From Rikenella microfusus DSM 15922 (GTDB lineage Bacteria; Bacteroidota; Bacteroidia; Bacteroidales; Rikenellaceae), in contig NZ_KE386488.1 of NCBI RefSeq assembly GCF_000427365.1, positions 1,523,882 to 1,587,881 on the forward strand: 64,000 bases of DNA, in the 5' to 3' direction. Under the pieces are notes generated by a model that did not search any database, was not told where the DNA came from, and saw only the letters and a list, made by a program, of their open reading frames with translations. Shown here piece by piece: positions 12,005 to 29,729 of the stretch. The position numbers and the translations under genes were made by a program. How positions within the stretch are numbered: the first letter of the stretch is position 1; each line of letters opens with the position of its first letter.

Positions 12005-12035
12005 TTTTTTATATCGGGAGAGTATTCTATATTTG
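12005..12035 (+). promoter_or_regulatory. Promoter of the expressed susC-susD pair
   Basis: TATATTTG at 12028-12035 is an exact TAnnTTTG box. TTT at 12005-12007, 20 bp upstream, is an imperfect -33. The leader would be ~70 nt. This promoter lies outside the invertible segment, so it would drive whichever SusC body is joined at 12410. The 297-bp gap 11814-12110 holds nothing else recognised. Confidence 0.6.
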
Positions 12036-12110: not shown

Positions 12111-15100
12111 ATGAAGAAAATTAGACTGTTAACATTGTTGGTCCTCGGTCTGCTGATAGGCGGTACAGCCTATGCGCAGAGCCGGGTGAGCGGCGTGGTC
12201 AAGTCTTCTGAAGACGGGCAACCACTCGCAGGTGTAGTCGTACAGATCAAAGGTACGACCATTGGTGCTCTGACCGGTGCCGACGGTACCTACACCATCA
12301 ACAACGCATCGGTAGCTAATTCCACGCTGGTTTTCAGCTACGCCGGTATGCGTAAGCAAGAGATTCCTGTTGCAGGGAAATCTACCATTAACGTAACCAT
12401 GCAACCCGATGCTTTACAGGCAGAGGCGGTCACGGTAACTGCTTTGGGAGGCCGCAAACAGAACCGTGCTTTGGGTTATGCCACCTCCACGGTAAAGGGG
12501 GATGAATTGGCCCGCACGAATACGGTAAGCCCTGCCAACGCCCTTCAAGGTAAAGTAGCCGGGGTACGTATTTCGACCGGCGGTTCGGGTGGTATTACCA
12601 CCGCTCCGACCGTAACGATCCGTGGTAACAAGTCTCTGACCAAGAACAACTCCCCGATCTACGTGATCGACGGTATCGTGATGGAATACGAACAGCAGTC
12701 GGCCGGAAACCTGTTCCGGAATACCGATGCCACCATGTACGGCAACCAGCTGAAGAACCTGAACCCGGACGACTACGAATCGGTAACGGTGCTGAAAGGC
12801 GCCGCCGCCACTTCGCTGTACGGTTCCCGCGGAGCCAACGGCGCCATCGTGATCACCACCAAACAGGGTAAAGCCCGTAAAGGTATCGGCGTCGAAGTGA
12901 ACTACTCGCACGAATGGGGAACGATCTACAAGAACGCCTATCCGCTCCAGAACGAATACGGGATGGGTGCCTACAGCAACGGTTACGAAGGCGATCTGAT
13001 TCCGGGTACCAACTCCACCTCTACCGGTTACACGGCCAGCTCGTGGGGCCCCTCCTTCGCGTCGATGCAGGGACAGCAGATGTACCAGTACTACAAGTAT
13101 TACGAACCGGACGGCATCGACAACCCGTTGGACAGCTACGTAGCTTATCCGGACAACTGGAAAGCGTTCTATCAGAACAGCCAGTACGATAATATTACGG
13201 TAGCATTGACGGGCGGTTCCGAGAAAGCCACTTTCCGTCTCTCGTACGGTTACATGGACGGCGACGGTAATATGCCGGACAACAGCTTCTCCCGCCACTC
13301 GATCAACTTCACCGCTAACGGCAAGATCAACGACGTGTTCTCGACCAACCTGAACCTCCAGTACTCGAACTCGACGACCGAAAATCCGAACTCGACGATC
13401 GGCGGTTCGTGGGCGACCGTACCGTCGATGGTCATCGGTTATTCGGCCAACCGGAACACCGATATCGAATGGTATAAGAACCACTATATCAATCCCGAAA
13501 CCTACGCGACCTACGGGACGACCTCGTTGGGCAACGTCAATAGCCGCATCACGCAGATGTACGACGAAAATGTCAGCCGCAACGAACAGACGCTTATCGC
13601 CCAGTTGGGATTGAGCGCCCAGTTCACCGACTGGTTGGACGCCAACGTCAGCCTGACCTACAACAACTGGCAGATCTTCTCCGAAACCAAGACCTGGGGA
13701 CGCGTGACGACCGGTAAATACGCCATCAGCGGCAGCACGAGCAGCTCTTACGACGGTACGGCCCAACTGCATGCCAACAAGCGGTTCATCGACGACAACC
13801 TCGAACTCGACGTACGTCTCTTCGGGCAGATCTACGGTAACGGCGTAGGCGCTTCGTACAACAAGAGTACCCGCGGCGGTCTGATTACTCCCGGTTTGTG
13901 GACGTTCGCCAACTCCGTGGAACCGATTACGACTTCCGAAATGGGCGTCAGCAAATCGCGGCGCAACTCGATGACGATCGGCGCCGGCGGTGTCGTGAAC
14001 CTGTCGTGGAAAGACCAGATCTATCTGGAAGTAACGGCCCGTAACGACTGGTTAAGCTCGCTGCTCTATCCGACCTGGATTCCCTACGGTCAGGACAACT
14101 ACTCGGTATTCTATCCTTCGGTGAACGCGTCGTGGGTCTTCTCCGACACGTTCCATATCGACCCGAACATCCTCTCGTTCGGTAAACTGCGCGCATCGTG
14201 GGCGCAGGTAGGTAAAGGCACCGACGCGTACGGAACGGCATCGGGCGCCGGCGGATATTCGATCAGCTCTATTTACGGCCCGACCAATAGCAGCATTTAC
14301 GCGGCATCGGCCAACAACAGCACGCTGCCTAACTACGACCTGAAGCCCGAAATCCAGACCTCGATCGAGTTCGGTGCCGACCTGCGCTTCCTGAACGGGC
14401 GTATCGGCGTGGACGTGGCTTACTACAAAACCAATACGAAGAACCAGATTCTCTCACTGAGTTCCGTTACCGAATCGGGGGTAAGCTCCCAGCTTATCAA
14501 TGCCGGTAATATCCAGAACCAGGGTTGGGAACTTCAGATGGACTTCGTGCCGATCCGCACCCGCACGGTGAACTGGACCATCGGCGCCAACTGGAGCCGC
14601 AACCGCGGTAAAATCAAGGAACTGGCCAACGACATCAACTACTATACGATCAGCGGCTATTCGTGGGACGGTTCCGCGACGCCGGGCGTTTACGCTTTCG
14701 TGGACGGCGCTTTCGGGGTGATCGCTTCCGGTAACGGTTACGGTTACGGCAATGAAATCGCTAAATTCTACAACGCCGACGACCCGAACGATCCGCGTAA
14801 CGGCAAGCGTCTGATTTACTATGCCGGTCAATACGATACCAATGTGGTACCCGGCACCAGCGCTTATGCGAATATGGTGTACGATTACGTGAGCGCATCG
14901 AATGTGGCCGGCTATTACGGCGACGAGGCTTCGTACTGGGGCGGTCAGAAAAACACGACCACGGTTCTGGGTAGCGTCGAACCGGATTTCGAATACGGTA
15001 TCAACACGAACGTATCGGTGAACCTGCCGAACAACAGCGGTTCGATCGACTTCTACGCCCAAATCGACGGACGTTCCGGCGGCTACATGGTACAGGCCAC

Positions 15101-15641
15101 CAAATGGTATCTGGACCAAAGGGGTAATACGGAGGAAACCCTTTACGGCCGCGATGCCGCTCACGGCGGCGAAGCCCGTATCAACTACAAAGGCGAAACC
15201 GTCTACAACGGTATCGTTCCGGACGCCGTGTTCTATACGCAAAATTCGAAAGTGACCAGTTTGACGACGGGACAGAAAGTGGATCTGGCGGGCATGACGT
15301 TCCGCGAAGCGGTCGATGCCGGACATATCCAGCCTGCGCTTGCCTCGACCTGGTGGGGTTACACCCGCGGCTATGCGGACGACATGGTCTCGAAACAAAG
15401 CTACATGGCCCTGCGCGAACTGACTATCGGGTACAACTTCCCTGAAAAGTGGATCAAACACGTCGGTCTGCAATCGGCACGCCTGTCGTTCACCGCACGC
15501 AACCTGTGTTACATCTATAACGGAACCAACGGTAAATCGAACCCGGACGGCTACATCACCAACAACGCCCTGACCCCGTTCGATTACGGTACCACTCCGT
15601 TCGTGCGCAACTTCTCGTTCGCCCTGAACCTGAGATTCTAA
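12111..15641 (+). CDS. SusC/RagA-family TonB-linked outer-membrane protein, complete (expressed copy)
   Basis: 1176 residues. Signal peptide residues 1-22 (ending TAYA-Q); CarboxypepD_reg-like domain about 24-100 (SRVSGVVKSSEDGQPLAGVV); plug domain about 115-245 with IYVIDGIVMEY and TSLYGSRGANGAIVITTK; then the 22-strand barrel, ending FVRNFSFALNLRF with a terminal aromatic. It imports oligomeric nutrients together with its SusD partner, powered by TonB. Codons 100-132 (12410-12505) are an exact inverted copy of the start of the truncated SusC at 28305, making this the receiving site of a probable DNA inversion. SusD follows 27 bp later. The substrate is unknown. Confidence 0.96.
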   Translation: MKKIRLLTLLVLGLLIGGTAYAQSRVSGVVKSSEDGQPLAGVVVQIKGTTIGALTGADGTYTINNASVANSTLVFSYAGMRKQEIPVAGKSTINVTMQPDALQAEAVTVTALGGRKQNRALGYATSTVKGDELARTNTVSPANALQGKVAGVRISTGGSGGITTAPTVTIRGNKSLTKNNSPIYVIDGIVMEYEQQSAGNLFRNTDATMYGNQLKNLNPDDYESVTVLKGAAATSLYGSRGANGAIVITTKQGKARKGIGVEVNYSHEWGTIYKNAYPLQNEYGMGAYSNGYEGDLIPGTNSTSTGYTASSWGPSFASMQGQQMYQYYKYYEPDGIDNPLDSYVAYPDNWKAFYQNSQYDNITVALTGGSEKATFRLSYGYMDGDGNMPDNSFSRHSINFTANGKINDVFSTNLNLQYSNSTTENPNSTIGGSWATVPSMVIGYSANRNTDIEWYKNHYINPETYATYGTTSLGNVNSRITQMYDENVSRNEQTLIAQLGLSAQFTDWLDANVSLTYNNWQIFSETKTWGRVTTGKYAISGSTSSSYDGTAQLHANKRFIDDNLELDVRLFGQIYGNGVGASYNKSTRGGLITPGLWTFANSVEPITTSEMGVSKSRRNSMTIGAGGVVNLSWKDQIYLEVTARNDWLSSLLYPTWIPYGQDNYSVFYPSVNASWVFSDTFHIDPNILSFGKLRASWAQVGKGTDAYGTASGAGGYSISSIYGPTNSSIYAASANNSTLPNYDLKPEIQTSIEFGADLRFLNGRIGVDVAYYKTNTKNQILSLSSVTESGVSSQLINAGNIQNQGWELQMDFVPIRTRTVNWTIGANWSRNRGKIKELANDINYYTISGYSWDGSATPGVYAFVDGAFGVIASGNGYGYGNEIAKFYNADDPNDPRNGKRLIYYAGQYDTNVVPGTSAYANMVYDYVSASNVAGYYGDEASYWGGQKNTTTVLGSVEPDFEYGINTNVSVNLPNNSGSIDFYAQIDGRSGGYMVQATKWYLDQRGNTEETLYGRDAAHGGEARINYKGETVYNGIVPDAVFYTQNSKVTSLTTGQKVDLAGMTFREAVDAGHIQPALASTWWGYTRGYADDMVSKQSYMALRELTIGYNFPEKWIKHVGLQSARLSFTARNLCYIYNGTNGKSNPDGYITNNALTPFDYGTTPFVRNFSFALNLRF
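12410..12505 (+). repeat. 96-bp inverted repeat, left arm (inside susC)
   Basis: All 96 bases match the reverse complement of 28210-28305. Identity stops abruptly at both edges (A/C at 12409, A/G at 12506). The two SusC genes outside it differ at many codon positions, so identity here is probably maintained by recombination. Both arms are read in the same frame (ALQAEAVTVTALGG...). Confidence 0.95.
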
Positions 15642-15668: not shown

Positions 15669-17810
15669 ATGAAAATAACGAAATATTTGATCGGAGGTTT
15701 GGCGGCGCTCGCCCTTGTCGGCTGTAAGGACAAGATGCGCGAGTTGAACACCAATCCCGACACCATCGGGGAGACCGACCCGCGGTATCTGTTCCTGAAT
15801 TCCATGCAGGATTTCGACTGGCCCTCGCGAGGCTATCTGCAGGTCGTTCCCCAGAATGTCGGAGCGTTGATGCAGTACGTGGCCTACTATAACGGGGCTT
15901 CGGCCGGTAACTACTGCAACCAGCAGGCCATGAGCTATGCTTCGCCGAGCAACATCAGTTATAACTACGACTGGTGGGAAGGAGTCGGCAAAGGCATGGT
16001 CACCATCATGACCTACATCGACGACAACATGGACGAAATCGAAGCGCAGCGGTACCAGGATTTGCGTGCCATCTGCGGTATCGTGAAGGTTTACGAAGCG
16101 TTCCGCGTGTTCCAGAACTACGGCGCGAATGTCTACACGCAGGCTTTCAAGGCGATCACCGAAGGGATCACCCTGCCGGAATACGATATCTTCGACGTGG
16201 AGATGTATGAAAAACTGGACGACGAGCTGGCCGGCTATATCGCCGTGCTGGAACAGCCGGCCAACGAGAACACGGTTCAGCTCAACGAGTACGACCCGAT
16301 CTACGGTTACATCGCCAATCCGGCGATGGGCGCTCCGAGCGCACGCGGGGATTACGAAACCCAGCGCACGCTGTGGAAGAAATTCGCGAACTCCTACCGT
16401 CTGCACATGGCATGGGTTATGCGCGCTGCCGACGGAGCGCGGTTCAGTCAGGTACTGCCCCAGGTGCTCGCATCGGGCGTCTATGAAAGCGCGGACGACG
16501 GCGCGTTCTCGTTCCTGAACGGCGGCGAAAACAACGGCGGCCCGTACAACTGTGCGGAAGCCGCACAGATCAGCACCAACTATGCGGTTACGGACAACTT
16601 CGTATCTTACCTCAAAGAGCTGGACGACCCGCGTCTGCCGCTGCTGGCGCGTGCCAACAACCTCTACGAAGCCAACAAGGCCCTGCAATGGATGAAAGCC
16701 TACTTCCCGGACTCGCTGAAGTTCCACGACTATTACAACCGCGAAACCAAGCAATGGGAAGACAATGTTTCGTGGGGCGGCGTTCTCGACTTCGAAGCCG
16801 ACCCGATGATGGCTTATCAGGGCGTTTCGGCCAACCCCGGCGATGTGAATATCAGCGGTCCGGGCCAGTTCTGGGGAGTGCGGGACTTCACGTTCCGGTT
16901 CTACGCTCCGGGCTATGTGCCGAACGGTGACAACGACAACCTGGGTCCGTGGACCGTTACGAACCAAGGCACTCCGACTGAGGACTTCCCGGCGACCTGG
17001 ACGATTTACAATCCGGACACTTCGTTCACCATCGAAATGGGCAGCCGTCCGCAGGGCCGCTATTGGGTAGCCGCCGGCGGCGCTCAGTACGGCGTGGCTT
17101 CCGAAGGGAACGGGAACGGTTACGACGGTTCGATCGACGACCGTTGGAGCATCTTCTTCCGCCAGCCGGTCTATACTTACCCGGAATTCTGCTTCATGAT
17201 GGCCTACCTGACCCTCGACGGGGAAAATACGGGCAGCAAATCGGCCGCCGAATGGTATGAAGACGGGGTGAAGGCCGCCATGGAAGAGTTGCAGGCCGAA
17301 GCCATACGGTACGGCGTACAGGTGGCTACCAACACGGAACACACCTACTATACCGAAGCCACCGGCACCCGGTATGTCAATCCCGAAATCAAAGGCATCA
17401 ACGACAACGGCGTTTACGCCATCGACGGAAGCATGATCAGCAGCTACCTGTCGGCGAACGCACTGTCGAGCGCTGCCGACCAGAAAGAGGCCGTCGTAGG
17501 CCAGATGTGGATCTACAGTTACCGGCAGCCGCAGAAGATGTGGGACTGGTGGCGTCTGACGGGTTACCCGAAAGTGGTGGACGTGAATACGCCGGCCGAC
17601 CGGCCGACGGGCCTCTACTGGGTACAGCCTTCCACGGAAGCCGACGGTACGGTGCTGACGTGGCCGCGCCGCGGCGCTCTGCCCCAGCCGGAAGCCGCCA
17701 ATAACGCGAACTACAATGCGGCCCGCGACGAACTGCTGAAGATCAGCGGTTACGGCTCGACTTACAACGAAACCACCGGACGTATTTTCTGGGATAAACA
17801 GGGATTGTAA
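15669..17810 (+). CDS. SusD/RagB-family nutrient-binding outer-membrane lipoprotein (partner of the complete SusC)
   Basis: 713 residues, a lipoprotein with a LALVGC lipobox (Cys19). The mature N-terminus DKMRELNTNPDTIGETDPRY and the length match the SusD-like group annotated as nutrient-binding outer-membrane lipoproteins. TPR-like helices and a C-terminal AVVGQMWIYSYRQPQKMWDWW segment are seen. It forms the lid on the SusC barrel and binds the substrate at the surface. Bases 15689-15763 are 74/75 identical, inverted, to the start of the second susD. Confidence 0.95.
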   Translation: MKITKYLIGGLAALALVGCKDKMRELNTNPDTIGETDPRYLFLNSMQDFDWPSRGYLQVVPQNVGALMQYVAYYNGASAGNYCNQQAMSYASPSNISYNYDWWEGVGKGMVTIMTYIDDNMDEIEAQRYQDLRAICGIVKVYEAFRVFQNYGANVYTQAFKAITEGITLPEYDIFDVEMYEKLDDELAGYIAVLEQPANENTVQLNEYDPIYGYIANPAMGAPSARGDYETQRTLWKKFANSYRLHMAWVMRAADGARFSQVLPQVLASGVYESADDGAFSFLNGGENNGGPYNCAEAAQISTNYAVTDNFVSYLKELDDPRLPLLARANNLYEANKALQWMKAYFPDSLKFHDYYNRETKQWEDNVSWGGVLDFEADPMMAYQGVSANPGDVNISGPGQFWGVRDFTFRFYAPGYVPNGDNDNLGPWTVTNQGTPTEDFPATWTIYNPDTSFTIEMGSRPQGRYWVAAGGAQYGVASEGNGNGYDGSIDDRWSIFFRQPVYTYPEFCFMMAYLTLDGENTGSKSAAEWYEDGVKAAMEELQAEAIRYGVQVATNTEHTYYTEATGTRYVNPEIKGINDNGVYAIDGSMISSYLSANALSSAADQKEAVVGQMWIYSYRQPQKMWDWWRLTGYPKVVDVNTPADRPTGLYWVQPSTEADGTVLTWPRRGALPQPEAANNANYNAARDELLKISGYGSTYNETTGRIFWDKQGL

Positions 17811-18271: not shown

Positions 18272-19153
18272 ATGTCTTACAATCTTCTGAAAGGTAAAAA
18301 AGGCCTGATTTTCGGTGCGCTCAACGATAAATCCATCGCCTGGCAGGTGGCCGAACGGGCCGTCGAAGAGGGAGCCGAAGTCGTGCTGACCAATACCGCC
18401 ATGGCGGCCCGTATGGGCGGTACGGCGGAGCTGGCCGAAAAACTGAATACCATTTTCGTCCCGGCCGACGCTACCAGCGTCGAAGACTTGGAACGCCTGA
18501 TCGATAAAACGATGGAACATTTCGGCGGCAAGTTCGATTTCATCCTCCACTCGATCGGGATGTCGCCCAACGTCCGCAAGGGGCGCACCTACGACGACCT
18601 CGACTACGGCTTCCTGATGAAGACGTTGGACATTTCGGCCATTTCGTTCCACAAAGTGATGCAGGTGGCCCGCAAGAAAGACGCCCTGAACGAATGGGGG
18701 TCGATCGTCGCGCTGTCGTATATCGCGGCCCAGCGGACGCTGTACGGGTATAACGACATGGCGGATGCCAAAGCGCTGCTGGAATCGATCGCGCGTTCGT
18801 TCGGTTACATCTACGGGCGCGAGAAAAAGATCCGCGTCAATACCGTGTCGCAGTCGCCGACGCCGACCACGGCCGGCAGCGGCGTGATGGGACTCGACCA
18901 CCTGATGGATTTCGCGCAGCGCATGTCGCCGCTGGGGAACGCCACGGCGCTGGACTGCGCCAATTATGTGCTGACCCTTTTCAGCGACCTGACCCGGAAA
19001 GTGACCATGCAGAATCTGTTCCACGACGGCGGTTTCTCCAGCATGGGGATGAGCCGTCGGGCGATGAAACTGTACAGCCAGAGTCTGGAGAAAGAACTGA
19101 AGGAATACGAGGAAAAGAACATGGAATTCCTCGATGTGAAACACGGGAAATAG
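18272..19153 (+). CDS. fabI: Enoyl-[acyl-carrier-protein] reductase [NADH]
   Basis: 293 residues. Rossmann start KKGLIFGALNDKSIAWQVAE; SDR-type active-site segment ALSYIAAQRTLYGYNDMADAKALLE with the catalytic Tyr and Lys; later INTVSQSPTPT-like region and a long C-terminal tail typical of Bacteroidetes FabI. It carries out the final reduction of fatty-acid elongation. It is single-gene, with its own promoter and terminator. Its place between two oppositely facing sus pairs means it would be turned around whenever the segment inverts. Confidence 0.96.
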   Translation: MSYNLLKGKKGLIFGALNDKSIAWQVAERAVEEGAEVVLTNTAMAARMGGTAELAEKLNTIFVPADATSVEDLERLIDKTMEHFGGKFDFILHSIGMSPNVRKGRTYDDLDYGFLMKTLDISAISFHKVMQVARKKDALNEWGSIVALSYIAAQRTLYGYNDMADAKALLESIARSFGYIYGREKKIRVNTVSQSPTPTTAGSGVMGLDHLMDFAQRMSPLGNATALDCANYVLTLFSDLTRKVTMQNLFHDGGFSSMGMSRRAMKLYSQSLEKELKEYEEKNMEFLDVKHGK

Positions 19154-19255: not shown

Positions 19256-20713
19256 TTACATCGGTTTCAGGTAAATCGTCCGTTCCCCTTCGCCGGTCGT
19301 GACCGACGCTCGGGCCAGATGTTCCGTTTCGGACGACGGCCGGCACTGACCGTCCGGACACAGGCGCATGTTGAACGTGTATTTATACCCCCGTTTCAGG
19401 ATGTCCGGAGCGACTCCCTGGTAATACCGCCCTCCGGCCCGTACGGTCAGGATAAGCCGGCTTTTCTCATAGGCGAAAAAAAGATACCGGTTGGTTCCGT
19501 TCGGCGTTACGGCCGGGTTGAATGCCGTCGCCCGGGGAGGAGACTGCGTATCCGTGGCCGCCCCGAACAGATAGCCCCAACTGCTGAATCCGCCGATACT
19601 CAGTTTGTCGATCGAGGGGACATCCGTCCAATCGGAATCGAAAAAGACGTTGAACGTGACGAGTGCCGTCACATGGGCCAGATCGACCTCTACCTTGTTC
19701 GTGCCGGGACCGAGGTTACAGACGGCCGTCCCGCTCAGCGGCGGCCGGATGTTTTCCGCATCGAACAGTTTCGTGGCGGCCGTGTCTTTGCGGTTCAGGA
19801 AATCCTGCTCGTTTCCGGCAAAAGCGGCCAGTTCGTGCGAGCTGTTCGCCACTGCGTAAATCCGCACCGAGGGGTAAGAGTTCCGTATCGCTGTCTCCGG
19901 GGGCAGAACGCGGAAACGGAACGCATATCCTTCCGCGCGGGGAAGATCCTGTGTGAAAAGCAAGTCGCCCCGGTCGTCGAATCCCGCGACGAACAGACTT
20001 TCGGTCCAATCGGCCGCCGCTTCGGTGCCGGCTGTCCCCGTGGGTAACCGGACGTGCCGCAGCGCAAGCTCTATGTCCAGGGCTGCCGAAAGCTGAAGCA
20101 ACGTCAGCGACGACGTATAGCCACGCTGCGGCTCGTAGATCCGTATGGAAGCCGCACGGTCTTCGAACGAATGGTTGGCAGTCAGGAAAAACGCGAGGGT
20201 ATCGAACTTTTCCCCTGCGGAAAGCCGGGAGGCTACCCAATCCGCGCCCTGCCCGATGTCCACTCGATAATTTCCCCCTGCGTGCAGCCTGACGACAATC
20301 GTGTCCCGCGCGGCTCCCGTTTCGTATATGGATTGACCTTCCGGCAGGGTTCCGTCTCCCTTTTGCGTCACGCCGATGCTTTGCGTCGCGTCGCCCGACA
20401 GGATGCGGATATAGGCAGTCCGTTCCTGCGGCGTCCGGTTTTCCTCTGCGACGATGCTCAGCGTTACCGTTCCCGGCCCGCCGCTGCGCGGCGAAATCCG
20501 GATCCAGTCCGCAGCGGCTTTCGTATCGGAAGTCTCCGCACTCCATGGGGCGGTCGCGGTAAAAGTCACCGTCGCCGCCTGGTTGTCGTCCATGTACTCC
20601 GGCAATACGATCCGGGGTGCATCCACCGTAATCTCCGCGGGTATCGTCTCCACGTCTCTGTCGCAGGCAGCCAGCAGCAGGACGGCGCTCCACAGGTATA
20701 TCTTAAGTTTCAT
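19256..20713 (-). CDS. BACON-domain lipoprotein
   Basis: 485 residues with lipobox LLLAAC (Cys17). The first mature domain (about 33-115) is a BACON beta-sandwich: TVTFTATAPWSAETSDTKAA, WIRISPRSGGPGTVTLSIVA, then IGVTQKGDG. A second similar but weaker repeat follows (about 120-205, VDIGQGADWVASRLSAG). The C-terminal ~270 residues resemble a fimbrillin/Mfa-like beta-sandwich (YLFFAYEKSRLILTVRAGG, KRGYKYTFNMRLCPDG). BACON domains usually bind glycans or mucin, so a surface role is likely, perhaps alongside the neighbouring SusCD systems. Its function is not established. Confidence 0.8.
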   Translation of the reverse strand: MKLKIYLWSAVLLLAACDRDVETIPAEITVDAPRIVLPEYMDDNQAATVTFTATAPWSAETSDTKAAADWIRISPRSGGPGTVTLSIVAEENRTPQERTAYIRILSGDATQSIGVTQKGDGTLPEGQSIYETGAARDTIVVRLHAGGNYRVDIGQGADWVASRLSAGEKFDTLAFFLTANHSFEDRAASIRIYEPQRGYTSSLTLLQLSAALDIELALRHVRLPTGTAGTEAAADWTESLFVAGFDDRGDLLFTQDLPRAEGYAFRFRVLPPETAIRNSYPSVRIYAVANSSHELAAFAGNEQDFLNRKDTAATKLFDAENIRPPLSGTAVCNLGPGTNKVEVDLAHVTALVTFNVFFDSDWTDVPSIDKLSIGGFSSWGYLFGAATDTQSPPRATAFNPAVTPNGTNRYLFFAYEKSRLILTVRAGGRYYQGVAPDILKRGYKYTFNMRLCPDGQCRPSSETEHLARASVTTGEGERTIYLKPM

Positions 20714-20871: not shown

Positions 20872-21146
20872 TTTACCTGTTTTATATTGTTATCGTGTAT
20901 GTTATGACTATTTTGAACTTGCATTTCGTTTATTTTTGTCATTAAATCAAAAAGCGTTCCACGGGCGGCATCAGGCCGTATCTTCGATCCGTCCGGATGT
21001 CAAGGAAAATTCAGAATCTAACAAATCGGGTATATTTTTAACAAAAGGGGCGATTCGTCCTTTCCGGCTATCGGACGATTGCCGGAAAAAGCGTTACTTT
21101 GCAAACAGCGAGACCGAAAATCGATATTCGCAGTAAAACATACAGC

Positions 21147-22253
21147 ATGGAGATTAAAAAAAGCGGAGCCGCCCTGTCGAAAATCGTACAGATCGGCGAA
21201 AAACTCAAAAAGCTGACTGCCGAAACGGGGCAGGAGTACCTGCCGCTGAACCGCGGCGTCAATGCAGTAGTCAATATCGACCTGCGCGAAGTGGTCGCAA
21301 ATATGGATTTCAATTCCAACGACATACAGGTGTATCCTCCGGGACCGGGCTTTCCGGCGCTCCGCCAGGCGATCAACGACGAGTATTTCGGCGGCAAATC
21401 TTCGCCGGACAATATCCTGATCTCGGCCGGGGGGATGAACGCCCTCGACCTCGTTGTCCAGACCGTGGGAATGGGGAAACTCTACCTGCCGGTCTATTAT
21501 TGGGGCTGCTATTTCCAGATGCTGACCGTGCGGGGAATCGGGAATGCCGAGTATATGGCGCAGAGCGATCTCGAAGGCATGATCCCGGAGCTGAAAGGCA
21601 ATGCGGTGCTGATCTGCGACCCGGGCAACCCGCTGGGCGAAAAATACGACGACGAACAGCAGTTCGCGCTGATTAAAAAGCTCAACGACGCGGGGATCGT
21701 GGTCTTTTTCGACAGCCCGTATCGCCGCATCTTCTACGACAAAACGGACAACTATTACCAGCGCCTGATGGCACTCGAAAACGTGATTATCACCGAAAGT
21801 TTCAGCAAATCCGTCGGGTTGAGCGGCCAGCGACTGGGCTTCATCCACACGACGAATAAGGAGCTGCACGACGAGCTGGAAATCCGCCTGATGTACTGTA
21901 CCAACGGGGTCAATGCGTTCGCACAGCAGTTGATCCTGCGGCTGCTGACCACGCCCGAAGGGATCCGGGCCGCGAGCGACTTCAAGGCCGCCACGGCACG
22001 CGATATCGCCCTGAACATCGAGTACCTGAAACAGCGCGGCCTGTTGGCCGAGGAGTACTACCACGCGAGCACGCCGACCGGCATCTTCGTGGTCGTGAAC
22101 CGTACGGAAGAGGAGTTGCTGGCTCACCGAATCGGCAGCGTATCGCTCTCGTTCTTCACCAAAAGCCAGAAAGAAAAAGCCTCGAAGTTCGCCCGTATCT
22201 GCGTTTCGGCGCCGCATCGGAAATTCGTCGAATATTTCGACGCTGTGCAATAA
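21147..22253 (+). CDS. PLP-dependent aminotransferase, class I/II fold
   Basis: 368 residues from the ATG at 21147; a longer start at 21099 overlaps the likely promoter. Fold-type I features are visible: LISAGGMNALDLVVQTVGMG, the NPxG-like CDPGNPLGEKYDDEQ, the FFDSPYRRIFYD Asp/Tyr pair, and the Schiff-base Lys in ITESFSKSVGLSGQRLGF. C-terminal GIFVVVNR-like strand is present. The overall shape is that of aspartate-type aminotransferases acting on amino acids, but the substrate cannot be told. It is a single gene within the probable invertible segment, ending at a strong hairpin. Confidence 0.88.
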   Translation: MEIKKSGAALSKIVQIGEKLKKLTAETGQEYLPLNRGVNAVVNIDLREVVANMDFNSNDIQVYPPGPGFPALRQAINDEYFGGKSSPDNILISAGGMNALDLVVQTVGMGKLYLPVYYWGCYFQMLTVRGIGNAEYMAQSDLEGMIPELKGNAVLICDPGNPLGEKYDDEQQFALIKKLNDAGIVVFFDSPYRRIFYDKTDNYYQRLMALENVIITESFSKSVGLSGQRLGFIHTTNKELHDELEIRLMYCTNGVNAFAQQLILRLLTTPEGIRAASDFKAATARDIALNIEYLKQRGLLAEEYYHASTPTGIFVVVNRTEEELLAHRIGSVSLSFFTKSQKEKASKFARICVSAPHRKFVEYFDAVQ

Positions 22254-22881: not shown

Positions 22882-25008
22882 CTATTGTTGGTTGACACCG
22901 ATCACATCCCAATAAATAGCACCCGTAGTCTGGTCGTAGGTCGAACCATAACCGGGGATTTCCAGCAGTTTGTTCCGCGTTTCGTTGTAATTCGCGTTGT
23001 TCAGTTCGTTATTAGGCCGCGGCAGCGAAGCACGGCGCGGGAACGAAAGCGTATTGGTCGAAGTACGCGGAGTAGGATCTACCCAATAGAGACCGCTGGG
23101 GCGTTCCGCCGGAGTTTTGACCGATACGATCTTCGGGTAGCCCGTTTTACGCCACCAGTCCCACATTTTGTTGGCCTGGTTGTAAGCGTAGATCCACATC
23201 TGACCCACGACAGCTTCTTTCTTATCCGTAACGTTGGCGCTGTTCAGGTCGACATTGCTCAAATAAGTGCCGATTTTGCTGGTCAGGTCGTACGGTTCGG
23301 TTTCGTTCACACTGACGATCTTCGTTGCGCTCAAGCTGGTCGCTACCTGTATTTCGTAACGGTTCGCGTCGCGCTGAAGTTCTTTCAGAGCGGCTTCCAC
23401 CCCATTTCTATACCAGATATCTGCCGATTGTTTCGTATCGACCCCTTCGAGGCTCAGGTACGCCATCATGAAACAGAATTCGGGATAGGTGTACACCGGA
23501 TGGGTATAGAACTTATTCGACGGATTGACATCGCCGTCATTACCGTTGACGCCGCTGTTCCCGTCGCCGTCGCCTTCCGTCTTACCCCCGTCGGCGATGA
23601 AATAACGGCCCTGCGGACGGCTCGCCATTTCCAGCGTGAACGAAGTGTCCGCATTCCAGATCGTACACGTCGCCGGGAATTCGTCGGTTACGGTCCCCGT
23701 GTTGGTCACGGTCCACGGTTTGAGTTTTTTGTTGTACTCCGAGTCGCCCGGTTTGTAATCCGGATGGTGGAACGTGAACGTGAAGTTCCGAAGTCCCCAC
23801 AACTGGCCCGGCCCGCTCATATCGTAGTTATACGGGTTGGCCGACTGCCCCTGGTAAGCCATCATCGGATCGGCATCGAAGTCCAGGACATCGCCCCACG
23901 GCACGTCCTTTGTCCAAGTTTTCGTCTCTTTGTTGTAATAAGCGTGTTTCACCAGCGAGTCCGGGAAATAGTGCTGCATCCACTGGATCGCTTTGTTCTC
24001 CTTGTTCAGGCTGTTGTTGCGGGCCAGCAGCGGCAGGCGCGGGTCCTTCAGCTGTTTCAGGTAGTGGATGAAGTTGTCCGTCACGGAATAAATCACGCTG
24101 ATCGAGTTCGTCCCGTCGGAGTTGTAGATCAAACCGCTGTTATCGTTGCTGCCGTTCATAAAGGCATACGCGCCCTCGTCGGCAGACTGGAAGACGTTGT
24201 CCAAACCGCCGTCCAGCACTTCGGTACGTACCTTTTCGAAACGGGTGCCGTCCACGTCTTTCATGATCCAGGCCATGTACAGGCGGTAAGAGTTGGCGAA
24301 TTTCTTCCACAGCGTGCGTTGCTGAGTATAATCGCCGCGCGTGGCCGGTGCCGTCGGCGTGCTGCTGACGATATAGCCGTAGATCGGGTCGAATTCGCCC
24401 AGCTCGGCTGCGGTCTCTTCGGCCGGAGCAGCCAAGACTTTAATGTAGCCGGCCAGCTCGTCGTCAAGCGATTCGTACACGCTGTTGTCGAAGATGTCGT
24501 ACGTCGGTACCAGGTTGCCCTCCAGCCCCTGGAACGCCTGCGAATAGATGGCGGCGCCGTAGTTCTGGAACACGCGGAACGCTTCGTAAACCTTCACGAT
24601 ACCGCAGATGGCGTGCAGATCTTTGTATTGGAGTTGTTCGTACTCGTCCAGGCCGTCGATGTACTTTTGCAGCTGGGTCATTTGATACCCTTTGGCATAC
24701 AGCCAATCATACATGTAGGACGTGGTCCTCAGCGTAACGTAGGTATTGGCCAGTTTGTCGCAGTAAGTGCCGTCCGTCGCCCCGTTATAGTGGACGAAGT
24801 ACTGCATTTTGACGGCAGTATTGAACATCAACGCTTCGCCGAAGCCGCGGCTGTCGTAATCGAAATCCTGCATCACATTCATGAATACATACCGCGGGTC
24901 GGTTTCCGAGATCGTGTCGGGATTGGTGTTCAACTCGCGCATCTTGTCCTGACAGCCGACAAGGGCGAGCGCCGCCAAACCTCCGATCGCATATTTAGTT
25001 ATTTTCAT
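22882..25008 (-). CDS. SusD/RagB-family nutrient-binding outer-membrane lipoprotein (partner of the truncated SusC)
   Basis: 708 residues, lipobox LALVGC (Cys19), mature start QDKMRELNTNPDTISETDPRY. It is a clear paralogue of the protein at 15669-17810 along its full length (for example KEAVVGQMWIYAYNQANKMW near the C-terminus) but diverges in the middle, where ligand contacts are expected. It follows the truncated susC by 26 bp on the same strand, so it would be expressed only when that SusC body is joined to a promoter. A glycine/asparagine/aspartate-rich insertion (GDGDGNSGVNGNDGDVNP) is a local peculiarity. Confidence 0.94.
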   Translation of the reverse strand: MKITKYAIGGLAALALVGCQDKMRELNTNPDTISETDPRYVFMNVMQDFDYDSRGFGEALMFNTAVKMQYFVHYNGATDGTYCDKLANTYVTLRTTSYMYDWLYAKGYQMTQLQKYIDGLDEYEQLQYKDLHAICGIVKVYEAFRVFQNYGAAIYSQAFQGLEGNLVPTYDIFDNSVYESLDDELAGYIKVLAAPAEETAAELGEFDPIYGYIVSSTPTAPATRGDYTQQRTLWKKFANSYRLYMAWIMKDVDGTRFEKVRTEVLDGGLDNVFQSADEGAYAFMNGSNDNSGLIYNSDGTNSISVIYSVTDNFIHYLKQLKDPRLPLLARNNSLNKENKAIQWMQHYFPDSLVKHAYYNKETKTWTKDVPWGDVLDFDADPMMAYQGQSANPYNYDMSGPGQLWGLRNFTFTFHHPDYKPGDSEYNKKLKPWTVTNTGTVTDEFPATCTIWNADTSFTLEMASRPQGRYFIADGGKTEGDGDGNSGVNGNDGDVNPSNKFYTHPVYTYPEFCFMMAYLSLEGVDTKQSADIWYRNGVEAALKELQRDANRYEIQVATSLSATKIVSVNETEPYDLTSKIGTYLSNVDLNSANVTDKKEAVVGQMWIYAYNQANKMWDWWRKTGYPKIVSVKTPAERPSGLYWVDPTPRTSTNTLSFPRRASLPRPNNELNNANYNETRNKLLEIPGYGSTYDQTTGAIYWDVIGVNQQ
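24914..24988 (-). repeat. 75-bp tract near the start of the second susD, inverted match to 15689-15763
   Basis: 74 of 75 bases match the start of the first susD (single difference at the first base after the lipobox Cys codon). It could serve as a secondary crossover tract exchanging SusD bodies. The left partner is at 15689-15763. Confidence 0.75.
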
Positions 25009-25034: not shown

Positions 25035-28000
25035 TTAGAATCTCAGGTTCAGGTTGATCGAGAAGTTGCGCACGAACGGAGTGGTACCGAAGTCGAACGG
25101 CGAGAAGACGTTGTTGCTGATGAACGAGTCGGGGTTCGAGCCGCCTTTCGCTTTGTTGATGATGTAGCACAGGTTGCGTGCGGTGAACGAGAGGCGTGCC
25201 GATTGCAGACCGACGTGTTTGATCCATTTTTCCGGGAAGTTGTACCCGACCGTGATCTCGCGCAGGGCCATATAGGTCTGGCTCGACACGTACATGTCGG
25301 TTGCGCTGTAACCCCAGTTCTGACGGTAGTAGAGAGAAGCCAGCATCGGTTGGATATGTCCGGCATCGACCGCTTCGCGGAACGTCATCCCGTTCAGATC
25401 GACTTTCTGTCCGGTCGCCCAGGAGGTGACTTCCGTGGTACCGCCGGCAGCGTTGCTGAATACGGCGTCCGGAACGATACCGTTGTATTCCCATTCGCCT
25501 TTGTAGTTGATACGGGCTTCGCCGCCGTTATTGGCGCCACGGCCGTAGAGCGACTCTTTTGAGTTACCGGCCTGGGTCGCATACGGCTGGATGGTCTGTA
25601 CGGAGTGTCCGCCCGAACGTCCGTCGATCTGGGCGTAGAAGTCCAGCGAGCCGCTGTTGTTGGGCAGGTTCACCATCACCGAGGTGTTGAAACCGTAAGT
25701 GAAGTCGGGCATCACGCTGCCGAACGAAGTGTAACGGTTCGATTTGCCGCCCCAGTACGAGGCTTCGTCGCCGTAATAACCGGCGATGCTGTTCGCATTG
25801 ACGTAGGTGTAGGCCATACTCGTCGAAGCGTCGAGCGACCCGGCCTGCGGATTCGTGTTTTTATTCGAGTCGCCGTTACCTGCATACGCGATCAGAGCTT
25901 TCCCGTTGCGGTAATCGTTCGGATCGTCGGCATTGTAGAATTTGGCGATAACACGACCGCCGCCGTTGTAGCCGTTACCCCCGGTGAGCACACCGAATTC
26001 GCCGCCTTCGAAGGCATATACGGACGGCGAATAGCTGAACCCGCCATTGATCTGGTAAGCGGTCTGGCCCGGATAGAGTTCGACGATCTTACCGCGGTTG
26101 CGGCTCCAGTTGGCGCTGATGGTCCAGTTCACCGTACGGGTACGGATCGGAGCCACGTCGAGCTGGATTTCCCACCCCTGGTTCTGGATGTTACCGGCGT
26201 TGATCCAGCGTTTGCTTACCCCCGATTCGGTAACGGTGGCCAGCGAGAGGATCTGGTTTTTGGTGTTGGTCTTGTAGTAGGCGACGTCCACGCCGATACG
26301 CCCGTTCAGGAAACGCAGGTCGGCACCGAATTCGATCGAGGTCTGAAGTTCGGGTTTCAGGTCGTAGTTCGGAAGGGTCGTGTTGTTCGGAGAGGCCATC
26401 AGGATGCTGCTGTTCAGCGGGCCGATTTCACCTCCGACGGTATAACCGCCTGCACCGTCGGCCGTATTGTACGCGTCGGTACCTTTACCTACCTGTGCCC
26501 ACGAGGCACGCAGTTTACCGAACGAGAGGATGTTCGGGTCGATCTGGAACGTATCGGAGAAGACCCAAGATGCGTTCACCGAGGGGTAGAATACCGAATA
26601 GTTGTTCTGTCCGTTCGGAATCCAGCTCGGATACATCAGCGACGAGAGCCAGTCGTTACGGCCGGTCACTTCCAGATATACCTGGTCTTTCCACGACAGG
26701 TTCACGACACCGGCCACACCGACGGTCATCTGGTTCCGGGGAGTGTAACCCACCGACATCTGCTGCGTGGTAATAGCCTGCTGCGAGTTCGAGAACGACC
26801 ATATACCCGGGGTAATCATACCGCCGTTGGTGCTCTTGGAATACGAAGTAGAGCGGGTGTTCCCGTAAACTTCTGCCAGCAGCCGCACGTCGAGTTCGAG
26901 GTTATCGTCGATAAACCGATTGTTGCTGTGCAACTGGGCGATACCGTCGTAAGAACCGCTCGTGGAATTCTTGATGCTGTATTCACCGTTACCGGCCGGG
27001 CTGTTCAGACCGCCGTAAACTTTCTTTTCATAGAAGGTCTGCCAGTTGTTGTAACTGATGCTGACGTTGGCGTCCAACCAGTCGGTGAACTGGGCGGTCA
27101 GACCCAGCTGGGCGATAATCGTCTGTTCGTTGCGGTTATCGTCCTGGTTGGCGATACGGTTCAGCATGGTGTTCGGCACGGAAAGGTCGGAAGTCCCGTA
27201 CCGTTCCTGAGTCACGGGGTCGATATAGTGCTCGTTGTACCATTTCAGGTCCGTGTTACGGTTGATGTAGTAAGAGGTCATGTAACCCGGTACCGTACTG
27301 CCGTCCCAACCGTTGTTGTAATAGGCGTTGGCCGTGTTGGAGTTCGAGTACTGGAGGTTCAGGTTGGTGGACAGGATGTCGTTGATCTTGCCGTTGGCGG
27401 TAAAGTTCAGCGAGTGGCGGGTAAAGCCGTTGTTCGGCATATTGCCTTCGCTGTCCGAATAACCGTACGACAGACGGAAGGTGGCCTTTTCGGAACCGCC
27501 GGTCAGGGCGACGCTCACGTTGTCGGTCCGGCTGTTCTGGAAATAGGCTTTCCAGTTGTCTTTGTAGGCCACGTAGTCTTCCAGCGGGTTGTCGATGCCG
27601 TCCGGAGCATAGTATTTGTAGTATTGGTACATCTGCTGACCTTTCATCGATTCGAAGGAAGGCCCCCACGAGAAACTGTCGTAGCTGGTGTACGTAGAAT
27701 TGACGCCGGGCATCATACCGCCTTCGTAACCGTTGGTCGGGTCGCCCATACCGTACTCGTTCTGAAGGGCGATCGAGTTTTTGTAAACGACGCCCCAGTC
27801 GTGGGTATAGTTCACTTCGACACCGATACCTTTGCGGGCTTTACCGCTCTTGGTGGTGATCACGATGGCGCCGTTGGCTCCGCGGGCGCCGTACAGCGAG
27901 GTGGCTGCGGCGCCTTTCAGCACCGTTACCGATTCGTAGTCGTCCGGGTTCAGGTTCTTCAGCTGGTTACCGTATTTGGTACCGTCGCTGTTGTTTCCGT

Positions 28001-28394
28001 AGGTCATGGATGCGTCCTGCTGTTCGTATTCCATGATGATCCCGTCGATCACGTAGATCGGGGAGTTGTTCTTGGTCAGCGATTTGGCACCGCGGATGGT
28101 CACGGTCGGAGCCGCCGTCAGGCCGGATGCCCCGCCGCTGGAGATTTGCACCCCGGCGACCTTACCCTGCAAGGCATTGGCGGGACTGAGGGTGTTGGTG
28201 CGGGCCAACTCATCCCCCTTTACCGTGGAGGTGGCATAACCCAAAGCACGGTTCTGTTTGCGGCCTCCCAAAGCAGTTACCGTGACCGCCTCTGCCTGTA
28301 AAGCAGAGGAGTTAGGTCGTTGGATTCCGTATATGTATCTTGATTTTAACGGATATATGCAAACCGTATGAATTTCCGTACATACGATTTGCAT
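25035..28394 (-). CDS. Silent SusC/RagA cassette lacking signal peptide and CarboxypepD-like domain
   Basis: The frame is open to 28394, but homology starts at 28305, at the ALQAEAVTVTALGG sequence equal to residue 101 of the complete SusC. Upstream codons (MQIVCTEIHTV...) look non-native: no signal peptide, no CarboxypepD domain. From there the 1089-residue plug and barrel are intact (IYVIDGIIMEY, TSLYGARGANGAIVITTK, C-terminal FVRNFSINLNLRF). As it stands the protein could not be exported. After recombination between the 96-bp repeats it would be fused in frame to the promoter and N-terminus at 12111-12410. Its intact frame argues against an ordinary pseudogene. Confidence 0.9.
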   Translation of the reverse strand: MQIVCTEIHTVCIYPLKSRYIYGIQRPNSSALQAEAVTVTALGGRKQNRALGYATSTVKGDELARTNTLSPANALQGKVAGVQISSGGASGLTAAPTVTIRGAKSLTKNNSPIYVIDGIIMEYEQQDASMTYGNNSDGTKYGNQLKNLNPDDYESVTVLKGAAATSLYGARGANGAIVITTKSGKARKGIGVEVNYTHDWGVVYKNSIALQNEYGMGDPTNGYEGGMMPGVNSTYTSYDSFSWGPSFESMKGQQMYQYYKYYAPDGIDNPLEDYVAYKDNWKAYFQNSRTDNVSVALTGGSEKATFRLSYGYSDSEGNMPNNGFTRHSLNFTANGKINDILSTNLNLQYSNSNTANAYYNNGWDGSTVPGYMTSYYINRNTDLKWYNEHYIDPVTQERYGTSDLSVPNTMLNRIANQDDNRNEQTIIAQLGLTAQFTDWLDANVSISYNNWQTFYEKKVYGGLNSPAGNGEYSIKNSTSGSYDGIAQLHSNNRFIDDNLELDVRLLAEVYGNTRSTSYSKSTNGGMITPGIWSFSNSQQAITTQQMSVGYTPRNQMTVGVAGVVNLSWKDQVYLEVTGRNDWLSSLMYPSWIPNGQNNYSVFYPSVNASWVFSDTFQIDPNILSFGKLRASWAQVGKGTDAYNTADGAGGYTVGGEIGPLNSSILMASPNNTTLPNYDLKPELQTSIEFGADLRFLNGRIGVDVAYYKTNTKNQILSLATVTESGVSKRWINAGNIQNQGWEIQLDVAPIRTRTVNWTISANWSRNRGKIVELYPGQTAYQINGGFSYSPSVYAFEGGEFGVLTGGNGYNGGGRVIAKFYNADDPNDYRNGKALIAYAGNGDSNKNTNPQAGSLDASTSMAYTYVNANSIAGYYGDEASYWGGKSNRYTSFGSVMPDFTYGFNTSVMVNLPNNSGSLDFYAQIDGRSGGHSVQTIQPYATQAGNSKESLYGRGANNGGEARINYKGEWEYNGIVPDAVFSNAAGGTTEVTSWATGQKVDLNGMTFREAVDAGHIQPMLASLYYRQNWGYSATDMYVSSQTYMALREITVGYNFPEKWIKHVGLQSARLSFTARNLCYIINKAKGGSNPDSFISNNVFSPFDFGTTPFVRNFSINLNLRF
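28210..28305 (-). repeat. 96-bp inverted repeat, right arm (start of the silent SusC cassette)
   Basis: Exact reverse complement of 12410-12505. Homology to the complete susC begins precisely at 28305, marking the probable crossover boundary. Confidence 0.95.
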
Positions 28395-28397
28395 ATA
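28354..28397. promoter_or_regulatory. Palindrome between recombinase and silent cassette, possible recombinase-binding or terminator site
   Basis: TATATGCAAACCGTATG (28354-28370) and CATACGATTTGCATATA (28381-28397) pair with one mismatch around a 10-nt loop. A related motif, TACATACAATTTGCATAC, lies at 29712-29729 upstream of the recombinase gene. Three copies of CATACnnTTTGCATA thus flank the gene. Confidence 0.45.
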
Positions 28398-28439: not shown

Positions 28440-29669
28440 TTATTTTCCGAAGTCGGTCAGCAGATGCGCATTTTTTTCTCTTTCCTCTTTCTCGAATCCG
28501 GCCAGGTAGCAGGCTGTAGTTTTCAGATCGTTGTGGCCCAGCGATTCGGAGATATAGATAATATTGGCGCCGCGGCGTTTCAGAATCGTGGCGAACGAAT
28601 GCCGTGCCGTGTAGGTCGAAATTTTACCGATCCCCAGGGCTTTGCCGATGATGTGCATGTGCCAGTTGATCCGGCGGGTCAGGTTCTGCGTCTTGATCTT
28701 CATCTCCATCGCCGTCTCCCGGCCGTTCAGGAACGGGAACAGGTAATTGTCCGCCGAAGCGGGATTCCCCCATCGTTGGATGATTGCCTGCATCTGCTCG
28801 GTGATGACGGCGCGGATCTCCTTGCGCATTCGGGAGGTGTGTTCGGTCTTCTGGCGGACGAAGCAGATCTCGCCGTCTACGATGTTGGAATATTTCAGCT
28901 TGATCAGATCCGCGACGTTGATGCCGTTGCAGAGGTAAATGAAAAACCACAGATCCCGGTAATAAGCCGTCAGCGGACTGTCGCCCTGATAGTTGGCTAT
29001 CTGTTCGATTTGTCTGATATTCAACGCGATCTTCCGGCCTTCGCCTTCCTGTATTTCGAATTTTCCTTTGCCGAACGGATATTGCGTGTCTTTCAGGCAG
29101 CCGTTTTTCCGGGCCTCGTTCAGGATGGCGCGTATGGCCCGCAGATGCATGCTGATGGTGACCGGGCTTTTGTCTTCGGCTTTCAGGAACCGTTCGTACC
29201 GTTTCAGCCAGTGTACGGTGACGTTTTCCAGCGGGATACGGTTGGAGGCGAAACGTTCGACGGACTTGATGACATTGTTGTACCAGAGCATGTTGCCGAT
29301 CCGTTGTTCGGTTTTGAGTACTTTGATCCGGTGTCTGAAAAGCGCGTTCAGCGTGTTGCCGCTTCCTCGTCCCAGTCGTTGGCTGAGCGTTTCGAACGAA
29401 AATTCGCCCTTGTCGGTCAGTTCCTGCGTCTGTTTCTTGATCAGATCGAAACTGCTGCCGATGTCCTGCCTGATTTCCGAAAGCCTTTTGCTTTTCGCTT
29501 TGGACATTTTTTCCCAATCATGGGGCGACATCTCTTTCCCGGTGGCGTAGTATTTCTGGATACGTTTATAAGTTACTTGAATTTTGACCGGATAGAGACC
29601 GTTCTTCTTGGCCCGCCGGGTGTCGAGCACGGAAGAGACGGTGACTCCGTCTTTGGCATACTTATACAT
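28440..29669 (-). CDS. Tyrosine recombinase, Bacteroidales DNA-invertase type
   Basis: 409 residues from the ATG at 29667-29669 (MYKYAKDGVTVSSVLDTRRA). N-terminal arm-binding domain, SAM-like core-binding domain (about 105-200), and catalytic domain with the TARHSFATILKRRG motif (Arg, His), then ESLGHNDLKTTACYLAGFE, with His and the nucleophile Tyr. The first box reads YLCNGINVADLIKLKY, with Asn where many integrases have the catalytic Arg; the TYTARHS stretch also has Tyr at the first box-II His. Both features occur in Bacteroides invertase-like members as I recall them. It lies 135 bp from the silent SusC cassette, making it the likely enzyme acting on the 96-bp repeats. No attachment site or phage gene is near. 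Confidence 0.9.
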   Translation of the reverse strand: MYKYAKDGVTVSSVLDTRRAKKNGLYPVKIQVTYKRIQKYYATGKEMSPHDWEKMSKAKSKRLSEIRQDIGSSFDLIKKQTQELTDKGEFSFETLSQRLGRGSGNTLNALFRHRIKVLKTEQRIGNMLWYNNVIKSVERFASNRIPLENVTVHWLKRYERFLKAEDKSPVTISMHLRAIRAILNEARKNGCLKDTQYPFGKGKFEIQEGEGRKIALNIRQIEQIANYQGDSPLTAYYRDLWFFIYLCNGINVADLIKLKYSNIVDGEICFVRQKTEHTSRMRKEIRAVITEQMQAIIQRWGNPASADNYLFPFLNGRETAMEMKIKTQNLTRRINWHMHIIGKALGIGKISTYTARHSFATILKRRGANIIYISESLGHNDLKTTACYLAGFEKEEREKNAHLLTDFGK

Positions 29670-29711: not shown

Positions 29712-29729
29712 TACATACAATTTGCATAC
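29712..29729 (+). promoter_or_regulatory. CATAC-TTTGCATA motif upstream of the recombinase gene
   Basis: It matches 28379-28396 at 16 of 18 positions and lies 43 bp upstream of the recombinase start. It could be an operator or recombinase-binding site; this is inference. Confidence 0.4.

Follow-up and report, generated by a model that had tools for sequence, protein, structure and literature searches.

Gene content of the susC locus

The window, by which we mean the whole 64,000-nucleotide stretch of Rikenella microfusus DNA that was analyzed, contains two susC-susD pairs in opposite orientations. A dipeptidase gene is followed by the first pair (susC-susD, +; the head cassette) and by genes for a FabI-type reductase (+), a BACON lipoprotein (-) and an aminotransferase (+), after which come the second pair (susD-susC, -; the silent cassette), a tyrosine recombinase gene (-) and trkA (-). 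The features of interest are:

12028..12035 (+): TATATTTG, candidate Bacteroidota -7 box (TAnnTTTG) upstream of the head susC, its promoter role taken from the consensus only
12111..15641 (+): head ('expressed') susC, 1176 aa, with PF13715, PF07715 and a TIGR04056 match of 532 bits; signal peptide (read from sequence), carboxypeptidase-regulatory-like domain, plug and barrel
12111..12409 (+): constant 5' part of the head susC, about 100 codons, missing in the silent copy
12410..12505 (+): head copy of the 96-bp tract, comprising the core and an apparent conversion zone
12410..12427 (+): putative head crossover core, TGC-TTTACAG-GCAGAGGC (left half-site, 7-bp spacer, right half-site)
15669..17810 (+): susD partner in the head cassette (PF12771/PF12741)
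18272..19153 (+): FabI-type enoyl-ACP reductase within the putative invertible segment (domain matches)
19256..20713 (-): BACON-domain lipoprotein within the same segment (domain match)
21099..22253 (+): PLP-dependent aminotransferase within the same segment (domain match)
22882..25008 (-): susD of the silent cassette (domain match)
25035..28304 (-): silent susC cassette, 5'-truncated, plug and barrel only (sequence and domain matches)
28210..28305 (-): second copy of the 96-bp tract
28289..28309 (-): silent-side core with perfect 7-bp arms, CCTCTGC-TTTACAG-GCAGAGG
28356..28370 (+): arm-type motif TATGCAAACCGTATG, forming with the next motif an inverted pair that lies between the recombinase gene and the core
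28381..28395 (-): arm-type motif TATGCAAATCGTATG, second member of that pair
28440..29669 (-): tyrosine recombinase (Arm-DNA-bind_5, SAM-like and catalytic domains), proposed invertase
29714..29728 (-): arm-type motif TATGCAAATTGTATG, about 45 bp upstream of the recombinase start

The two susC copies had been described in the first-pass annotation as two SusC genes. This holds for the head copy, which is full-length, while its partner proved to be a truncated silent cassette: the silent susC has neither a signal peptide nor PF13715, which only the head copy carries, and is without the first ~100 codons, so that homology to the head starts exactly at the left end of the 96-bp tract. Judged by sequence, start signals are present on the head copy only, and silent copies are without them.

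Between the end of the recombinase gene and the silent core are 135 bp. Translation probably begins at the ATG at 29669, since in two congeners stop codons occur further upstream; the listed TTG at 29720 probably lies too far upstream. The protein matches PF00589, and the alignment motifs TARHSF, GHND and TACYLAGFE hold the conserved R-H-Y residues of the family. It is under purifying selection, with dN about 0.1 against dS about 1 or more. The position of the first catalytic Arg appears to be Asn (CNGIN), also in near relatives, as a feature of the subfamily. The nearest solved structures are generic Xer-type recombinases and are uninformative on the site.

The identity tract and its 18-bp core

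The two susC copies are exactly identical over 96 bp (12410-12505 on the + strand against 28305-28210 on the - strand), as first proposed from the sequence, and this is the longest exact run between both susCD copies, the next being 62, 59 and 38 bp. Among codons elsewhere that encode the same amino acid in both copies, 70.5% are identical. From these codon counts, we estimate the chance of a 32-codon identical run in ~740 codons at ~0.003, which makes such a run improbable yet not astronomically so when taken alone. The claim that synonymous differences flank the tract at both edges is correct for the right edge; at the left edge the second copy is non-coding, and identity ends there because this copy is 5'-truncated and intergenic DNA lies beyond. 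A whole-genome search, carried out as the first-pass annotation had suggested, placed the tract at only two positions, with no copy in any of this genome's other SusC homologues. An invariant tract in unrelated SusC genes had been named as the sign of protein constraint; because the tract is absent from these homologues, that is not the pattern found.

The real crossover was also expected to be a short sub-site, and the comparison of genomes narrows it to 18 bp at the extreme left end of the tract. This core, TGCYTTRCARRCAGAGGC (12410-12427), is the minimal identity within a genome where the cassettes are most diverged: in G005 the within-genome identity stops after 18 bp (TGCTTTACAAGCAGAGGC), while in other genomes it extends over about 20, 44 and 96 bp. 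In every genome it starts at TGC or just before. The core lies at codons 101-106 of the head susC, just before the plug, and is found exactly at only two places in this genome, inverted relative to each other and flanking the alternative coding segments. Arms of 7 bp around a 7-bp spacer are a usual layout for tyrosine recombinase sites. The arms of the silent core are perfect, whereas the head left half-site, CCGATGC, is degenerate and matches the arm poorly. Across species the core reads TGC-YTTRCAR-RCAGAGGC, with three of the four variable positions synonymous. It encodes Ala-Leu-Gln-Ala/Thr-Glu-Ala, so part of its conservation, and perhaps of the likeness to tRNA described below, is due to protein constraint.

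Although the core varies between species, every copy within one genome agrees, and the concordance of head and silent cores in every genome makes it likely that the recombinase target is inside the tract, in line with the first-pass reading. We assessed this with one head-silent pair per genome in five genomes (120 possible pairings), since the four Millionella copies dominate a plain label shuffle. At the core, the true head-silent pairing is the best of the 120, with no other as concordant, and by ~108 bp the signal is gone. Because the signal fades in this way, the remaining part of the tract appears to be a conversion zone beside the crossover, with ~80 bp homogenised. Agreement of the core within genomes together with local decay is what fixed-site exchange with local homogenisation would predict.

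Evidence for inversion and alternative explanations

The locus is whole in four congener assemblies (G003, G004, G005 and G006), where recombinase, silent cassette and head are syntenic, and partial in three (G001, G002 and G007). Millionella massiliensis (G003) has one full-length head and three truncated silent cassettes, with the same core in all four sites. In the tree, silent cassettes of different species group together, so these clades are older than the species, and for this reason recent duplication of the cassette could be ruled out. As a separate observation, Millionella silent cassettes 2 and 4 (G003:C1:2259230-2277371) are identical, to rounding, over their first ~1.1 kb and 95.8% identical overall, which suggests recent conversion between them.

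Evidence for inversion was drawn from three congeners (G002, G003 and G006), the window strain being represented by a single assembly. In G002, contig C67 opens with exactly 55 bp of head joined at the core to a silent-type plug, and further along, at ~15.3 kb, it has a join of the head to the other plug type. The assembler should have had reads with the first join, and the 55-bp overlap at the contig start suggests an assembly k-mer; alternatively, the MAG could combine two strains and the junction stem from that mixture. Compared with G000, G004, G005 and G006, the G003 assembly has fabI in the opposite orientation and on the far side of the aminotransferase gene, with cassettes at the breakpoints. 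The head receptor of G006 groups with the silent cassettes of other species (support 0.994). Apart from G006, the head receptors of most congener assemblies belong to one and the same clade, and switching may therefore be infrequent or strongly biased.

Taken together, the locus is very probably a switch in which SusC/SusD cassettes are inverted site-specifically by the adjacent tyrosine recombinase. The recombinase would bind the arm motifs beside the silent core and synapse the head core (12410-12427) with the inverted silent core (28305-28288), and strand exchange inside the ~7-bp spacer would then invert the ~15.9 kb between the cores. Promoter, signal peptide and N-terminal domain would keep their position and acquire the other plug-barrel, in frame, together with its SusD. 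The predicted product is a chimera of the constant ~100-aa N-terminus with a new plug, barrel and SusD, by which the surface receptor pair would be exchanged. No arm motif was found within 1 kb of the head core at up to three mismatches, nor near the inner cassettes of G003. With the putative arm sites at the recombinase end alone and outside the segment, each inversion would leave the head core-only and the recombinase side armed; substrate and product would thus share one site arrangement, and the reverse reaction should be possible without an excisionase. Catalysis by the recombinase, reversibility, the switching of expression and the role of the arm motifs are all read here from the arrangement of sequences. 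The inverted arm pair (28356-28395) is complete in G000, G005 and G006 and single in G003, G004 and G007; it is a candidate binding site, operator or terminator.

Three other explanations of the tract were weighed against this recombinase-driven switch. Protein constraint at the TonB-box/plug boundary might produce the identity alone, as the amino acids of the region are conserved across the genus. Congeners with nearly the same amino acids, however, differ at many synonymous sites of the tract, and within each genome the head and silent copies covary at synonymous sites. This covariation led us to reject constraint as the sole cause, the lack of the tract in the genome's other SusC homologues also speaks against it, and we give the explanation next to no weight. 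RecA-dependent homologous recombination might instead keep the tract identical and make any inversion, with the recombinase incidental. A 96-bp identity is long enough for this, the copies share further identical runs of 59-62 bp, and homogenisation reaches ~100 bp beyond the core. RecA alone is nevertheless improbable, because the copies in G005 share only the 18-bp core, which is too short for efficient exchange and still covaries within the genome. The signal is moreover anchored at the core and not at other conserved blocks, and both the conserved synteny of recombinase and motifs and the purifying selection on the recombinase argue against an incidental presence.

It is also conceivable that recombinase-driven switching belongs to the past, with the locus now largely locked in the window strain and the tract a relic. 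The receptor clade shared at the head by most congener assemblies would fit such a history, as would the one orientation known from the single assembly of the window strain. We consider it unlikely given that the recombinase is intact and constrained, the cores are perfectly matched, and a close relative (G002) has both joins on its contig.

Relation to tRNA-targeting integrases and known shufflons

A search of this genome with the core, allowing three mismatches, returned two further sites, 26 kb apart, which read TGCCTTACAAGCAGAGGG. Both serve an island as attachment sites: one lies within tRNA-Val(UAC) and the other beside a recombinase 57% identical to that of the susC locus. The core-like part of tRNA-Val(UAC) is the anticodon arm. 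When the susC core was compared with the 47 tRNAs of the genome, tRNA-Val(UAC) was the best match (15/18), closely followed by tRNA-Ala(UGC) (14/18), and the silent site of G005 matches the tRNA-Val anticodon arm at 18/20 positions. The 15-bp arm motif TRTGCAAAYYGTRTG has five copies genome-wide, three around the susC-locus recombinase and two at the ends of the tRNA-Val island, with no control matches. No tRNA gene was found in the 64-kb window, and no tRNA remnant near the recombinase.

The island itself (G000:C2:1131551-1157588) occupies 26 kb in tRNA-Val(UAC) and has direct-repeat attachment sites with an arm motif at each end. Its cargo includes a Schlafen/AlbA_2 protein, a RhuM family protein and a caspase-like peptidase, as well as a SNF2/PLD helicase, an Eco57I-type methylase and a protein kinase, and it looks like a defence island. 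A second paralogue of the recombinase (G000:C2:2255866-2257089), 60% identical, adjoins a tRNA-Asn 3' remnant.

A tRNA 3' remnant, from the anticodon arm on, lies ~185-250 bp upstream of the gene in eleven relatives with 52-60% identity, found in the same genome, in other Rikenellaceae-level relatives, in Parabacteroides and in Flavobacterium; most of these also carry the arm motif described above close to the gene start. Among the relatives searched, no remnant was found at L095, L096 and L097, and at L093 a tRNA-like stretch is present that was missed by the T-stem filter. The susC-locus recombinases form one clade (support 1.000) amid these relatives in a tree whose deep nodes are weakly supported. 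Like the tRNA-targeting island integrases of Bacteroidota, the susC-locus recombinase has the domain order, the upstream arm motif and an anticodon-arm-like core in addition to the 52-60% protein identity. Island integrases, in contrast, adjoin a tRNA 3' remnant and integrate or excise an island, whereas the sites of the susC locus are inverted and lie inside susC copies.

In our reading, a tRNA-targeting integrase is the probable ancestor of the recombinase, whose core would imitate the anticodon arm of a tRNA-Val-type tRNA. A fuller scenario, which in our judgment has an even chance of being right, is that a genomic-island integrase was domesticated as a receptor-switching invertase: the tRNA-arm attachment site would have moved into SusC codons at the TonB-box/plug boundary, and arm sites outside the segment would have made the reaction reversible without an excisionase.

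As described in previous studies, Bacteroides fragilis has a SusC/SusD shufflon driven by Tsr0667 (PMC4747536, PMC11852207, PMC5729914). Besides three SusC/SusD clusters, Tsr0667 is described as acting on nine further regions (PMC4747536), and the B. fragilis repeats are described as lying behind an invertible promoter, where they overlap the start codon of susC (PMC5729914). As far as these descriptions go, the two systems have in common a site-specific recombinase, inverted sites and susCD pairs placed in turn behind one expression site. By the same descriptions, the locus reported here differs in having its crossover within the coding part of the gene, behind ~100 constant residues, and its exact core at only two genomic places. 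Inverted repeats overlapping the susC start codon are absent here, the core being at codons 101-106. In the R64 plasmid shufflon (Rci/pilV), a constant N-terminal part is combined with alternative C-terminal segments through short intragenic sites. The susC locus likewise joins a constant N-terminus to alternatives by inversion within the gene, although the gene is unrelated and here the whole barrel and the partner lipoprotein gene would be exchanged, with housekeeping genes in the segment. SusC shufflons are known, and what is new here is the intragenic crossover and the apparent origin from a tRNA integrase. Our literature search, which covered little of the subscription literature, found no Rikenella example and no integrase-derived SusC invertase. 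The locus supplies a clean recombination core for Rikenella and Millionella, for which that search had returned no such system.

SusC/SusD pairs import nutrients and can be targets of phages and of immunity. Swapping the receptor body while promoter and export signals are kept would therefore be a compact form of bet-hedging. Since paralogues in the same genome still use tRNA genes, the locus also allows the route by which an integrase may turn into an invertase to be traced, and the common core and arm motifs make this transition testable.
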